A stretch of DNA of 64,000 bases from an uncultured Acetobacteraceae bacterium (GTDB lineage Bacteria; Pseudomonadota; Alphaproteobacteria; Acetobacterales; Acetobacteraceae), in contig CAIYDT010000247.1 of NCBI GenBank assembly GCA_903924985.1, positions 1 through 64,000 on the forward strand. Reading direction: 5' to 3'. Under the pieces are notes generated by a model. That model was not told the DNA's origin. It made no database searches and saw only the letters and a list, made by a program, of their open reading frames with translations. The translations under genes were made by a program, and so were the position numbers. How positions within the stretch are numbered: position 1 is the first letter of the stretch; the number at the start of each line of letters is the position of its first letter. Positions 54,279 through 57,919 of this stretch are shown here, piece after piece.

Positions 54279-55916
54279 TCAGCCCCCCATCGCCAGTTGC
54301 ACCACGCGAACAACGACCATGCCGACCGCCAGCAGCAGGTAGCCCCGCAGCACGCTCATCCACATGCGGGTCGCGCCCGTCATCGGAGTCGGTTGCAACT
54401 GGCTCAATGGCCGCATCCGCCAAATCGGGCGCAATGCGCGGTCGACGGGCCGTTGGGTCGCCGGTTTGCGCAATGTCAGCGTCACACCGGTGGCGATCGC
54501 GGCGAGCACCGTTCCGCTACCGAGGATCCACAGGATTTGTTCCCCGGATATAGACGGATACAGCACGGACGCGGTCAGAATAACCGACAGCATGACCAAC
54601 ACCGCGATCACAGACCCGGTAAACACATTGGTCCAGCGCCCGTTCACCCAGGGTCCGAGCACTACGGGGTCATTGCACAATAGCAGCAGGAAGACGGTAG
54701 CGGAGGGCAGCAGAACGCCGGCCAGTGTCTGCACCGCTTCGGTCATCAACCCCAGCGGCGCATTGGGGATCAGCACCAGGGCCGCGGCGGCGGCGATCAG
54801 GCCGCAATATACCAGGTAGAAACCGCGCGCGTCCCCGGCGCTCCGGTGCAACGAATGTTTCAGCGACAGCGTATCGCCCAGGGCATAGGCGGTGGACAGC
54901 GAGACCGCCGCCGCGCCGATAATGCTGGCGTCGATCAGCACCATGGCGAACAGGGTCGCCGGAACCTTGCCGGCATATTTGGCCAATCCCGCCGCGATGC
55001 CGCCGGCATCGGTGAAGTTGCCGGCCTCGGGATGTCCGGCAAAGGTGCCGGCGCAGAATGCCATCATCGCCGCCGCGCCGACGATCACCATCACAACGCC
55101 AATGCATAAATCGGCCTTCTCATAGGGGATGAAGCGGGGCGTGATGTGTTTGTCGATCACATAGCTCTGTTGAAAGAATAATTGCCAAGGCGCGACGGTG
55201 GTGCCGACGATGGCGATGATCAGGAGCAGCACGTCGGACAGTTTCCCACCCGCCGGCATGCGCGGTATCACCGTATCCCGAGCGATGTCGCCGATTGGGG
55301 CGTGCACCATGACGACGATGGGGACCAGCAGCAGGCTGCCGAGGCATAGCAGCAAGGCGAAACGTTCGAACCGGCGGAAGTTGCCGGTGGTGGCGGCCAG
55401 CATGGTAACGCCGGCCGCGACAACCACGCCCCACAGTTTCGGCAGACCGAGGGCGTCCAGACCCAGGCTAATGCCGATAAACTCGGTGACAATGGTCAAA
55501 CCGTTCAGGATGAACAGGTCGATGACGCTGAACGCGCCCCAGAACTTGCCGAAGCGCTCCAGGATCAGGCGGGCATGACCAACGCCGGCGACAGCGCCGA
55601 GGCGCAGCACCATCTCCTGGTTCACATACAGCACGGGCACCAGCAGCAGCAGCGTCCACATCAGGGCGGTGCCATAATTCTGGCCCGCCTGGGTGTAGGT
55701 GGCGAAGGCGCCGGCATCGTTATCGCCCACCATGACGATGATGCCGGGACCGACGATCGCCGCGAGGGTCTTGAGCCTGGAGCGCCAGGTGGCGCCGGTG
55801 CGGTGGCCGCCTTGATAAATGCTGCCCAGCGCGCCGTGGATGTCGCCGACATGGGCGGCGTCCAGAGCGGCGTTCAGCGGGCGGGGCAGCAATTGTGCCA
55901 GGTTGGTGTTGGGCAT
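54279..55916 (-). CDS. Nramp-related divalent metal transporter
   Basis: A 545-residue membrane protein with about 11 helices of the Nramp fold and a cytosolic N-terminal extension of ~50 residues. The helix-1 metal motif is VGDNDAGAFATYTQAG rather than the DPGN of Mn/Fe transporters. The helix-6 motif is TTVAPWQLFFQQS, in which the conserved metal-binding Met of MPH is Ala. These changes resemble the magnesium-transporting Nramp relatives, so Mg or another hard divalent ion is more likely than iron. A 434-bp structured leader with a short ORF precedes it. Confidence 0.87.
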   Translation of the reverse strand: MPNTNLAQLLPRPLNAALDAAHVGDIHGALGSIYQGGHRTGATWRSRLKTLAAIVGPGIIVMVGDNDAGAFATYTQAGQNYGTALMWTLLLLVPVLYVNQEMVLRLGAVAGVGHARLILERFGKFWGAFSVIDLFILNGLTIVTEFIGISLGLDALGLPKLWGVVVAAGVTMLAATTGNFRRFERFALLLCLGSLLLVPIVVMVHAPIGDIARDTVIPRMPAGGKLSDVLLLIIAIVGTTVAPWQLFFQQSYVIDKHITPRFIPYEKADLCIGVVMVIVGAAAMMAFCAGTFAGHPEAGNFTDAGGIAAGLAKYAGKVPATLFAMVLIDASIIGAAAVSLSTAYALGDTLSLKHSLHRSAGDARGFYLVYCGLIAAAAALVLIPNAPLGLMTEAVQTLAGVLLPSATVFLLLLCNDPVVLGPWVNGRWTNVFTGSVIAVLVMLSVILTASVLYPSISGEQILWILGSGTVLAAIATGVTLTLRKPATQRPVDRALRPIWRMRPLSQLQPTPMTGATRMWMSVLRGYLLLAVGMVVVRVVQLAMGG

Positions 55917-55976
55917 GTCGGCCTCGGGGTCGTTTGGTCGTGAGTCGGAATGGCTGGCGGGTGCGATGAGCGCCTA

Positions 55977-56039
55977 TCAGCCAAACGGATCGCGTCCCGA
56001 GGACGAGGACAGTCGGACGACGTTGAGAAAGGCGGCCAT
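55977..56039 (-). CDS. 20-residue leader ORF upstream of the Nramp-type gene
   Basis: A perfect AGGAGG lies 5 nt before an ATG that opens MAAFLNVVRLSSSSGRDPFG followed by TGA, ending 60 nt before the transporter start. The ribosome site is stronger than that of most genes here, so it is probably translated. It may act as a leader peptide that couples translation to transporter expression. No known leader-peptide family is recognised. Confidence 0.6.
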   Translation of the reverse strand: MAAFLNVVRLSSSSGRDPFG

Positions 56040-56071
56040 TGGCGCCTCCTGTTGCCTAAGTGTTGACTTAA

Positions 56072-56214
56072 GCTCGGGAGGACTGGCCGCCGGGGCCTCG
56101 GCGCGTTAGCGGCGCGCGGGCCTGAGCGGGATCATGCGCTCCCGAACACGGATCCAGTCCAGGGAAGGGGTCGAAGCGGGCGCTAAGCGCCTACTGTCGC
56201 CTTCCGGGGACTGG
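56072..56214 (-). promoter_or_regulatory. Structured RNA leader with alternative pairing, riboswitch candidate
   Basis: On the minus strand, CCAGTCC (56214-56208) pairs with GGACTGG (56160-56154). Inside lie GGAAGG/CCTTCC and a GGCGC-TTA-GCGCC hairpin. A second CCAGTCC (56086-56080) can compete for the same GGACTGG. GTTCGGGAG (56147-56139) can pair with CTCCCGAGC (56080-56072), which crosses the competing helix. Thus two mutually exclusive folds exist just upstream of the leader ORF, as expected for a riboswitch or attenuator. By eye it does not match the M-box or yybP-ykoY consensus. Confidence 0.55.
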
Positions 56215-56307
56215 CTGCTGGATCGAGGTCTCATGGGGTCCCTACCGAAGGTTGAAAAAGCCGCCGCGCACCGAGCCGATTCCGCCGCGCAGCAGACTCG
56301 CCAGTAG

Positions 56308-56325
56308 ACCGGTCGGTGGACCGGT
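56308..56325 (-). terminator. Hairpin ACCGGTC-CACC-GACCGGT after the binding-protein gene
   Basis: A perfect 7-bp stem with a 4-nt loop lies 25 nt after the stop of the upstream binding-protein gene. It probably ends or stabilises that transcript. No T-run follows. Confidence 0.5.
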
Positions 56326-56350
56326 TCAAGCGAAAAATTGGAGTCTCATT

Positions 56351-57919
56351 TTACCCGACCGGCCGCACATTCCATGGATATGGCCCGATGCCCTGCAAGA
56401 TGCCGGTGATGCTGCTTCGGTAGGCGGTTTTCAGGAAAAATTGGCCCAGCGGGACCGTCGCGACCTCATGGAGGGCCAGGTTGTTGATGGCGGTGGCGAT
56501 GCGTTTTTGCTCCGCGGGGTCGGAGGTCGCGATCCAATCTCGCACCATGTCCTCGGCCTTGGGGCTGTTCCACCAGCCGAACCATCCCTTGGCGCCCTGG
56601 CCGCGCGTCAACGTGGAAATGACGGGGTTGGAGTAGGACACCGCCGGCCCGGTTGTGTGGAACATGCTCCAGCCGCCTTTTTCCACCGGCTCCCGGCTGG
56701 TGCGGCGCTGCAAGACCGAACCCCAGTCCATTTCCTGCAAATCGACGTTCATGCCGATCTTGCGCAGAGCCTCGGCGGTGACGCTGCCCAGGGGGCCGAT
56801 GACCGGGAAGTCGGTGGGGCTAATAATCACGACGCGCTGCCCGGCATACCCGGCCTCATCCAGCATGCGGCGGGCGGCGGTCAGGTCGCCTGTCATCAGG
56901 CGTTTGCCTTCGTCTTCGGTGGTGAAGCGCGTGCCGCAGACGAACAGGCTGTGGCACGTCCGCCAGAGGCTGGTGTCGTCGCCGATGGTGGCGCGCATAT
57001 AGTCTTCCTGTTTCACCGCCGTCATCACCGCGCGCCGTATCCGGACATCGTCGAACGGTGGTTGTAAATGATTCATTCTCAGCAGGCTGAGGCGCCCGGA
57101 TGGGTCGTGGATCATGGTGCGGATGTTCGGATCGCGCTCCAGACCCGGTATCAGGTCGTTCAGCGGGCGTTCCCACCAATCGGCTTCGCCTTTCAGCAGC
57201 GCCGCGGACGCGGTGGCCGGGTCCGGGATAATGTTCCATTCCACCCGCGGGAAGTGCGCGATCTTGGCACCTGAGGCCCAGTCCGGCGGTTCGGATCGGG
57301 GAATGTATCCGTTGAAACGTTCGTAGGCCACATGGCTGCCGTTGATGTATTCGTCGGGCAGAAACCGGTAAGGCCCGGAGCCTATTGCCTCCGTTATCGC
57401 CTTCATCGGATCGGTACGCGCCATGTGTTCCGGCATGATAAAAGGCACAGCGGCTTCCGGTTTCGCCAGCGCGTCCAGCACCAGTGCGAAGGGCCGTATC
57501 AAATGCAACTCAAGCGTCTTGTCGTCGGGTGTTGCCCATTGTTCTACAACCGCGTCAAGAAGTTGCCCAAGCGGATCGCGTTTGCACCAGCGCTGGATGC
57601 TGAGCGAGCAGTCGATGCTACGGACAGGTGTATTGTCGTGGAATTTCAACCCATCACGAAGACGAAACCGCCAGACTCTCTGATTGCTCGAGATTTCATG
57701 GCCCGCTGCCATTTGTGGTTGCGGGCGTAACTGGCTGTCCGCGGAATAGAGCGTATCGAACACATGGTAGCCATGCGTGCTGGACACGGTGGCGGTGGAC
57801 CAGATGGGGTCCAGCACGCTCAGATTTGTTTGCGGAATGAGCCGCAAGGTGGCGATATTCGCCGCGCGCGCGGCAAAGGGGGCGGCAAGAGCGGTGGTCA
57901 GTAAGGTGCGGCGTTGCAT
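56351..57919 (-). CDS. ABC solute-binding protein, family 5 (orphan)
   Basis: A 522-residue DppA-like binding protein with a signal peptide (MQRRTLLTTALAAPFAARAA) and the opening LIPQTNLSVLDPIWSTATVS. Later NQRVWRFRLRDGLKFHDNTP and DDVRIRRAVMTAVKQEDYMR are family-5 landmarks. It is a paralogue of the protein at 50969-52540. No transporter subunits are adjacent. ATG 57919 is chosen because CAGGAG lies about 9 nt upstream; a TTG six codons earlier is in frame. Confidence 0.88.
   Translation of the reverse strand: MQRRTLLTTALAAPFAARAANIATLRLIPQTNLSVLDPIWSTATVSSTHGYHVFDTLYSADSQLRPQPQMAAGHEISSNQRVWRFRLRDGLKFHDNTPVRSIDCSLSIQRWCKRDPLGQLLDAVVEQWATPDDKTLELHLIRPFALVLDALAKPEAAVPFIMPEHMARTDPMKAITEAIGSGPYRFLPDEYINGSHVAYERFNGYIPRSEPPDWASGAKIAHFPRVEWNIIPDPATASAALLKGEADWWERPLNDLIPGLERDPNIRTMIHDPSGRLSLLRMNHLQPPFDDVRIRRAVMTAVKQEDYMRATIGDDTSLWRTCHSLFVCGTRFTTEDEGKRLMTGDLTAARRMLDEAGYAGQRVVIISPTDFPVIGPLGSVTAEALRKIGMNVDLQEMDWGSVLQRRTSREPVEKGGWSMFHTTGPAVSYSNPVISTLTRGQGAKGWFGWWNSPKAEDMVRDWIATSDPAEQKRIATAINNLALHEVATVPLGQFFLKTAYRSSITGILQGIGPYPWNVRPVG

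Follow-up and report, generated by a model that had tools for sequence, protein, structure and literature searches.

What is the purpose of a long, structured stretch of DNA ahead of a metal transporter gene? In the window analysed here (64,000 nt from an uncultured Acetobacteraceae bacterium), a gene for an Nramp-related transporter lies on the minus strand behind a gap of 434 nt. A reading of the sequence alone, here called the sequence-only reading, had taken this gap for an undescribed metal- or translation-responsive leader with nested and competing helices and a 20-codon leader ORF, and had proposed to check it by covariation among homologous leaders, by Rfam searches and by the conservation of the leader ORF. 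The elements that it named are all present on the minus strand of the gap. Its interpretation is partly supported by the comparison of leaders described here, which also points to a second leader ORF that it had not noticed.

The transporter gene and its leader

The transporter gene (54279-55916, minus strand) encodes a protein of 545 amino acids that matches PF01566 (E 1.5e-75). Among solved structures, the top match was 7QIA (E 9.6e-47; the runner-up had E 6.2e-16), which is EleNRMT, an Nramp-related Mg2+ transporter that is described as taking up Mn2+ as well (PMC8806188). The NRMT signature given in that paper consists of DxxG and TxxA/T. The window's protein has TTVA, which fits TxxA/T and is followed, as in EleNRMT, by Trp, but DAGA where the signature has DxxG; several homologues behind the same leader have DAGG. 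Among solved structures the transporter is closest to a proven NRMT, and Mg2+ is its predicted substrate. An ORF with both DNDAG[AG] and TT[VI]APW comes next after 65 of the 69 leaders that we compared, the four others being L134, whose contig ends, L136, L156 and L160.

The surroundings of related genes contain further elements with links to metals. The transporter is followed by an MgtC-family gene in L161 and by a gene for an MgtE_N protein in L178. An Rfam scan that took in 40 of 80 orthologous loci found an M-box ahead of the NRMT-like gene, up to about 620 nt 5' of it, in four (L048, L073, L078 and L079, from records titled Leifsonia, Streptomyces, Arthrobacter and Actinobacteria bacterium) and none in the other 36, including L049, L081 and L082 of Streptomyces and L061 of Cellulomonas. 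For comparison, NrmT of Clostridium acetobutylicum is described as being under M-box control in the work that established this class as Mg2+ transporters (Shin et al., PMC4072509).

Relatives of the CsoR/RcnR/FrmR-type repressor gene of L105 were seen in 37 loci (among them L105, L120, L074 and L191), a count that includes duplicates and some loci without the leader studied here. The three such genes tested belong to PF02583 and do not reach the FrmR and RcnR cut-offs of NCBIfam. This repressor family is not known to sense Mg2+. Such neighbours speak for an additional metal input, perhaps a different one, in some species.

The leader folds more stably than its dinucleotide shuffles (z -3.05 over 429 nt and z -4.37 over the conserved 229 nt). 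No Rfam family matched the leader or eight homologous loci at gathering score, and this includes the covariance model of the M-box (RF00380) and, for the leader, those of yybP-ykoY and all other families; a permissive search of the leader returned just two matches, to unrelated families (E 3.6 and 5). On this evidence the description of an undescribed leader with competing helices before a metal transporter stands, and in the published open-licence literature we found nothing on this leader or on the control of alphaproteobacterial NRMT genes.

A DNA search of 98 relatives detected the leader upstream of the same gene in other genomes. Within this sample, a protein search found orthologues with at least 60% identity in 17 genomes, the window's own included, and the leader precedes all 17 (nhmmer E 1e-22 or better). 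Ahead of three further Nramp genes, with about 40% identity, it was clear in L119 (E 6e-13), marginal in L116 (E 0.001) and not found in L117. A covariance model of the leader's 5' half gave matches in 68 of the 299 family genomes searched (E 0.01) and in 12 of 385 genomes of the class, 10 of the 12 lying outside the family. Among the out-of-family matches, those in G598, G675, G568 (twice) and G366 share the uORF1 type described below, G061 is the already counted L105, and the match in G447 falls within a 525-aa ORF; the remaining four have E above 0.004. G134, G166, G276 and G349 each have two or three strong matches.

Several local features of the gap were also noted. A consensus scan for promoters and terminators over 55880-56420 gave nothing on either strand. 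Just 3' of a TTGAAC lies an inverted repeat, ACCGGTC-CACC-GACCGGT (56325-56308), and none of 29 other leaders compared showed it. Further along the minus strand, at 56287-56262, about 26 nt match the coding sequence of GGIGSVRG in a gene of L093 and L098, from other genomes of the family, that we take to be a branched-chain amino acid permease, and this segment is possibly a gene remnant within the leader. An ATACCC..GGGTA-like palindrome was observed 5' of uORF1 in 11 of the 69 leaders.

Leader reading frames and alternative helices

Our comparison is based on an alignment (A3) of 69 leaders, the window's copy included, each found with nhmmer at E no higher than 1e-16 over at least 190 nt. 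Removal of near-duplicates left 70, of which L169 was omitted by hand because its match is partial; weaker matches were not counted.

The ORF missing from the sequence-only reading, which we call uORF1 (MRPRSSSQSPEGDSRR..., 42 codons, 56106-56234, minus strand), overlaps the hairpins and is more conserved than the 20-codon ORF. Its ATG is at 56234-56232, its codon 16 ends at 56187, and AGGGA (56239-56243, minus strand), in a purine-rich stretch aligned in A3, is its likely ribosome-binding site. The start is ATG in 68 of 69 leaders and TTG in one. The uORF1 frame is open beyond the switch arm, a helix strand defined below, in all 69 leaders, compared to 0 and 4 for the other frames. It spans 38-46 codons and stops 27-54 nt past the start of the arm, and in 60 of 69 leaders the distance from its ATG to the arm is divisible by 3.

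Peptide-level constraint differs between two parts of uORF1. In 67 of the 69 leaders (two with a codon insertion were omitted), the synonymous share of differing codons in codons 2-16 was 0.335, compared to 0.300 in column shuffles, none of which reached it in 300 trials; the other frames showed no such excess, as 296 and 281 of 300 shuffles reached their values. Codons 17-29 showed no synonymous excess in the uORF1 frame (300 of 300 shuffles) and a small one in frame +2 (0.102 versus 0.089, 0 of 300). The constrained peptide, codons 2-16 after the Met, reads M[N/K]PRSSSQPxExxSRR, with Pro3, often Pro9, and, in this consensus, no acidic residue before position 11. Judged by codon changes, it is uORF1 that bears a sign of peptide-level selection, rather than the 20-codon ORF that had been called translated-looking, although leader ORFs are indeed conserved.

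The hairpins overlapped by uORF1 are conserved in part. P1, in which CCAGTCC (56208-56214) pairs with GGACTGG (56154-56160) on the minus strand, is paired in 85.8% of cells among the 69 leaders and has two-sided changes in six of its seven pairs. The apical stem P2, formed on the same strand by GTAGGCG (56188-56194) and CGCCCGC (56176-56182), is paired in 85.6%. Of the three-tier hairpin described earlier, all of which is present in the window, the outer and apical stems are thus conserved, while GGAAGG/CCTTCC is paired in just 50.3% of cells, shows 0 compensatory events and was rejected as a conserved tier. The second CCAGTCC is also present. The candidate competing helix that it forms is paired in 63.9% of cells, and slid two-helix versions score nearly as high.

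Further downstream, two helices compete for the strand that faces a ribosome-binding site. The helix here termed ON, which had been noticed in the window before, pairs the switch arm within uORF1 (minus strand 56139-56147, GTTCGGGAG as DNA and GUUCGGGAG as RNA) with a strand at 56072-56080 (minus; CTCCCGAGC as DNA, CUCCCGAGC as RNA) that overlaps the anti-Shine-Dalgarno strand. It is conserved in the 69 leaders: 87.1% of cells are paired, seven of nine pairs have two-sided changes, 33 cells are two-sided, its covariation score was reached by 0 of 500 shuffles, and slid versions are 22.6-61.2% paired. The OFF helix joins CCUCC (56081-56077; CCTCC, minus strand) to GGAGG (56049-56045), which hides the AGGAGG of SD2 (56045-56050, minus strand), the ribosome-binding site predicted to be regulated. 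This CCTCC is paired with GGAGG in 87.5% of cases, and a hairpin, GCTTAA/TTAGGC (56054-56073, minus strand), which is stacked inside the helix, in 84.1%; together, OFF helix and hairpin are paired in 85.7% of cells, 38 of them two-sided. ON and OFF both need CUCCC (56080-56076) and are mutually exclusive. At the regulated start codon, TGGCCGCC (56031-56038, minus strand) can pair with GGCGGCCA (56091-56084). This pairing, found in 64-73% of cells, has moderate support from comparison of the leaders, since its four compensatory events were reached in 11 of 300 simulations.

Shuffles ignore relatedness, and we therefore also counted compensatory events on the leaders' own tree, against 300 simulations with the observed site rates over 234 of 278 columns. 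P1 had 12 events compared to 1.4 expected, P2 7 compared to 1.0, the ON helix 7 compared to a mean of 1.1, the OFF helix 3 compared to a mean of 0.2 and the GCTTAA/TTAGGC hairpin 8 compared to 1.1, and no simulation reached any of these values. For the second-CCAGTCC helix, 6 events compared to 1.5 expected were reached in 2 of 300. By these counts P1, P2, ON, OFF and the hairpin covary. When the null took no account of site rates, the values were reached in 0 (P1), 2 (P2), 7 (ON), 53 (OFF) and 0 (hairpin) of 300 simulations, so that ON is weaker, OFF is not exceptional, and support for the OFF helix comes partly from conservation of the ribosome-binding strand. A stricter, tree-aware search covering each of the 26,565 column pairs gave none at E < 0.05, the best being a hairpin pair at E 0.05. 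RNAalifold, applied to 17 leaders, predicted 33 pairs, 15 with two-sided changes, in a structure that lacks the ON helix; the latter was tested on its own.

Behind AGGAGG begins uORF2, the ORF of the sequence-only reading, which has 20 codons in the window (55977-56039, minus strand) and stops 60 nt before the transporter. Its start is conserved (ATG in 68 of 69 leaders, GTG in one) but its length is not. A separate uORF2 exists in 62 leaders, with 40-75 codons in 46, fewer in 10 (the window's included) and more in six. A W..GR..W ending is found in 35 of the 62 by a strict pattern and in 40 by a loose one, and the window's uORF2 is a short member without it. Pfam assigned no family to two uORF2 peptides from this leader type. 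In the other seven leaders (L087, L107, L143, L146, L153, L155 and L175), the AGGAGG start shares the transporter's reading frame, and the switched start can therefore be that of the transporter itself. The uORF2 stop has 4 nt in common with the closest candidate start of the transporter in L042, L132, L152 and L168. The conserved helices are thus positioned to govern translation initiation at the start behind AGGAGG.

Three single-contig genomes of one genus (G171, G227 and G269, with leaders L136, L145 and L154) keep uORF1, the switch and uORF2, yet a search at E 1e-10 found no Nramp gene in them. Their uORF2 varies by in-frame insertions, and the small protein it encodes may serve a separate function.

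A Rhizobiales form of the leader was observed in 13 loci (L005, L020, L024, L028, L030, L034, L046, L054, L057, L069, L071, L072 and L074), of which seven are titled Bradyrhizobium. Its uORF1 begins with MGSS in nine, MGSI in two and MGSR in two, and its uORF2 has a similar C.W...W ending; a Pfam match of one such uORF2 was sub-threshold and taken as chance. CUCACC has two possible partners there, GGUGAG at the ribosome-binding site and GUGAG after uORF1. Six of the seven OFF pairs form in 12-13 of the 13 loci and the outermost in 5, and the five ON pairs form in 8-13 each, with little variation. These pairings are no more than suggestive of a related two-helix switch. A pattern search for the Rhizobiales-form uORF1 in the 385 class genomes gave one match. 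L020, from Bradyrhizobium, has GGCGACAGTAGRC in common with the Acetobacteraceae form and carries a Rhizobiales-2 RNA (RF01723, L020:469-554) about 460 nt 5' of uORF1. Apart from these 13 loci, L021, titled Methylobacterium jeotgali, has tandem uORF1-like ORFs before its NRMT gene (1255-1377 and 1753-1887, beginning MNPRSRPSSS... and MTGRSSSTVEPPSR...) with a uORF2-like ORF in between.

A possible attenuator and its alternatives

The two leader ORFs, the pair of alternative helices and the association with an NRMT-like gene are established by comparison of the leaders. The leader probably controls magnesium uptake. We consider it fairly probable that it is a translational attenuator controlled by uORF1, with low Mg2+ as the likely cue; its pause site, the direction of control, the Mg2+ cue and the relay through uORF2 are parts that we infer. 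Ribosomes would translate uORF1, whose second half holds the switch arm GUUCGGGAG. A pause or abort within the conserved first 16 codons would leave the arm uncovered to pair with CUCCCGAGC, and this ON pairing would block CCUCC/AGGAGG, free SD2 and allow translation of uORF2 or of the transporter itself. Ribosomes running through uORF1 would instead cover the arm, let the CCUCC/GGAGG hairpin form and so hide SD2. In most species uORF2 would relay initiation to the transporter, either through coupling or by protecting the RNA against Rho. Low cytosolic Mg2+ would raise transporter output, and Mg2+ is favoured as the cue because of the kinship with EleNRMT, the M-box on four of 40 orthologous loci and the MgtC and MgtE_N neighbours.

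Folding simulations agree with some of these steps. In the whole leader at equilibrium, OFF prevailed over ON (0.83 versus 0.11, means over 69); a ribosome placed on the first codons raised ON to no more than 0.30, one placed at codons 27 to 38 left none of it, and OFF was favoured on average at each ribosome position simulated. When the RNA was cut before the ribosome-binding site, ON reached 0.59 without a ribosome and 0.59-0.72 with one at codons 1-24, and almost vanished with one at codons 27-35. Without forcing, ON was rare (0.01) in the cut RNA of the window. Forcing ON left the regulated AUG more unpaired than in OFF (0.64 versus 0.41) but did not free SD2 on average (0.24 versus 0.28 unpaired, more open in 35 of 69), while in the window's own leader SD2 was 0.28 unpaired with ON forced versus 0.17. 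The simulated ribosome positions agree with late ribosomes excluding ON but lend no support to a release of SD2. One interpretation of these values is that the structure merely sets the translation rate or mRNA stability, with no switching, as the average preference for OFF at all ribosome positions and an SD2 no more open with ON forced would suggest. However, two overlapping, exclusive helices that are both conserved with compensatory changes are unexpected for a static element, and we hold a constitutive leader to be very unlikely.

Alternatively, the 5' domain, with P1, P2 and its conserved loops, could bind a ligand, perhaps a metal ion, as a riboswitch in which uORF1 is incidental. The domain is compact, its stems covary, its loop bases are highly conserved, an M-box is found on other members of the transporter family, and a weak closing helix takes in the uORF1 start. 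This closing helix, which would join GCAUGUGACC to the region around the uORF1 start, was weak in both registers tried, 69.6% of cells being paired in one of them, with five events that were reached in 4 of 300 simulations. Its pairing is broken by single changes in 100 of 120 cases, which argues against the riboswitch. Moreover, the conserved domain begins at a ribosome-binding site and start codon with frame 0 open in 69 of 69 leaders, and codons 2-16 are under a peptide-level constraint that an aptamer does not need. A riboswitch is, in our judgment, unlikely. There is a similarly small chance that the attenuator just described, with which this alternative overlaps, responds to a cue other than Mg2+, such as a transition metal, the supply of an aminoacyl-tRNA or an inhibitor of elongation. 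The CsoR/RcnR/FrmR-type gene at many loci, the Ser and Arg codons conserved in uORF1 and the Mn2+ uptake described for EleNRMT (PMC8806188) would fit such a cue, whereas the kinship with EleNRMT, the M-box before some orthologues and the MgtC and MgtE neighbours speak for Mg2+.

Several observations count against the uORF1-controlled attenuator, namely the dominance of OFF, the failure of ON to free SD2 on average, the rarity of ON in the window's own RNA, the null result over all column pairs, the weaker figures for OFF and ON under the null without site rates and the non-acidic start of uORF1, together with the CsoR/RcnR/FrmR-type genes, the three genomes that lack Nramp and the absence of an M-box from 36 of 40 loci. 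A more far-reaching version, which we put forward only tentatively and on balance doubt, is that these leaders form a family of Mg2+-sensing leader peptides. The nascent uORF1 peptide would pause ribosomes at low Mg2+ and open the NRMT switch, as an independently evolved alphaproteobacterial counterpart of the M-box on orthologous actinobacterial genes, with a diverged Rhizobiales form (MGSSxSG) and with uORF2 as a conserved small protein of the regulon. If true, different RNA devices, a peptide-coding switch and the M-box, would have evolved for one job on the same gene. The leader would then offer a compact, testable system for ribosomes that report Mg2+, and natural variants exist where the transporter itself can begin at the switched start codon.

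Comparison with known leaders of magnesium transporter genes

Short ORFs whose translation, within a structured leader, affects a Mg2+ transporter gene have precedents in enterobacteria. The leader of mgtA contains one, mgtL, and the leader studied here would resemble those of mgtA and corA in this respect. The corA leader is described as combining a short ORF with Rho-dependent transcription termination (PMC11552253), unlike the present leader, whose conserved helices address a ribosome-binding site.

The M-box is similar in its location before orthologous NRMT-like genes, at four of the 40 loci scanned, and in its reported use as a translational platform, since in Mycobacterium it is described as controlling a small conserved uORF (PMC12810186). 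This could be a precedent for the relay ORF. The leader differs from RF00380 in that it has no Rfam match and its first domain is coding.

A further parallel is mgtQ in the leader of Salmonella mgtB, a short ORF that is described as overlapping alternative stem-loops, one of which hides and the other frees the ribosome-binding site of the Mg2+ transporter gene, and whose translation promotes expression (PMC8092293). As with mgtQ and mgtL, uORF1 overlaps alternative structures that would hide or free a downstream site, here as seen by comparing leaders. According to the same paper, mgtQ has 8 codons, lies between two genes and has Asp2 and Glu5, which destabilise ribosomes. In contrast, uORF1 has 38-46 codons, lies in a 5' leader, is usually followed by a second ORF before the transporter and encodes a different conserved peptide, M[N/K]PRSSSQPxE, without Asp or Glu at the corresponding early positions. 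On the best reading, the leader would work in the manner of mgtQ, with another peptide in its place.
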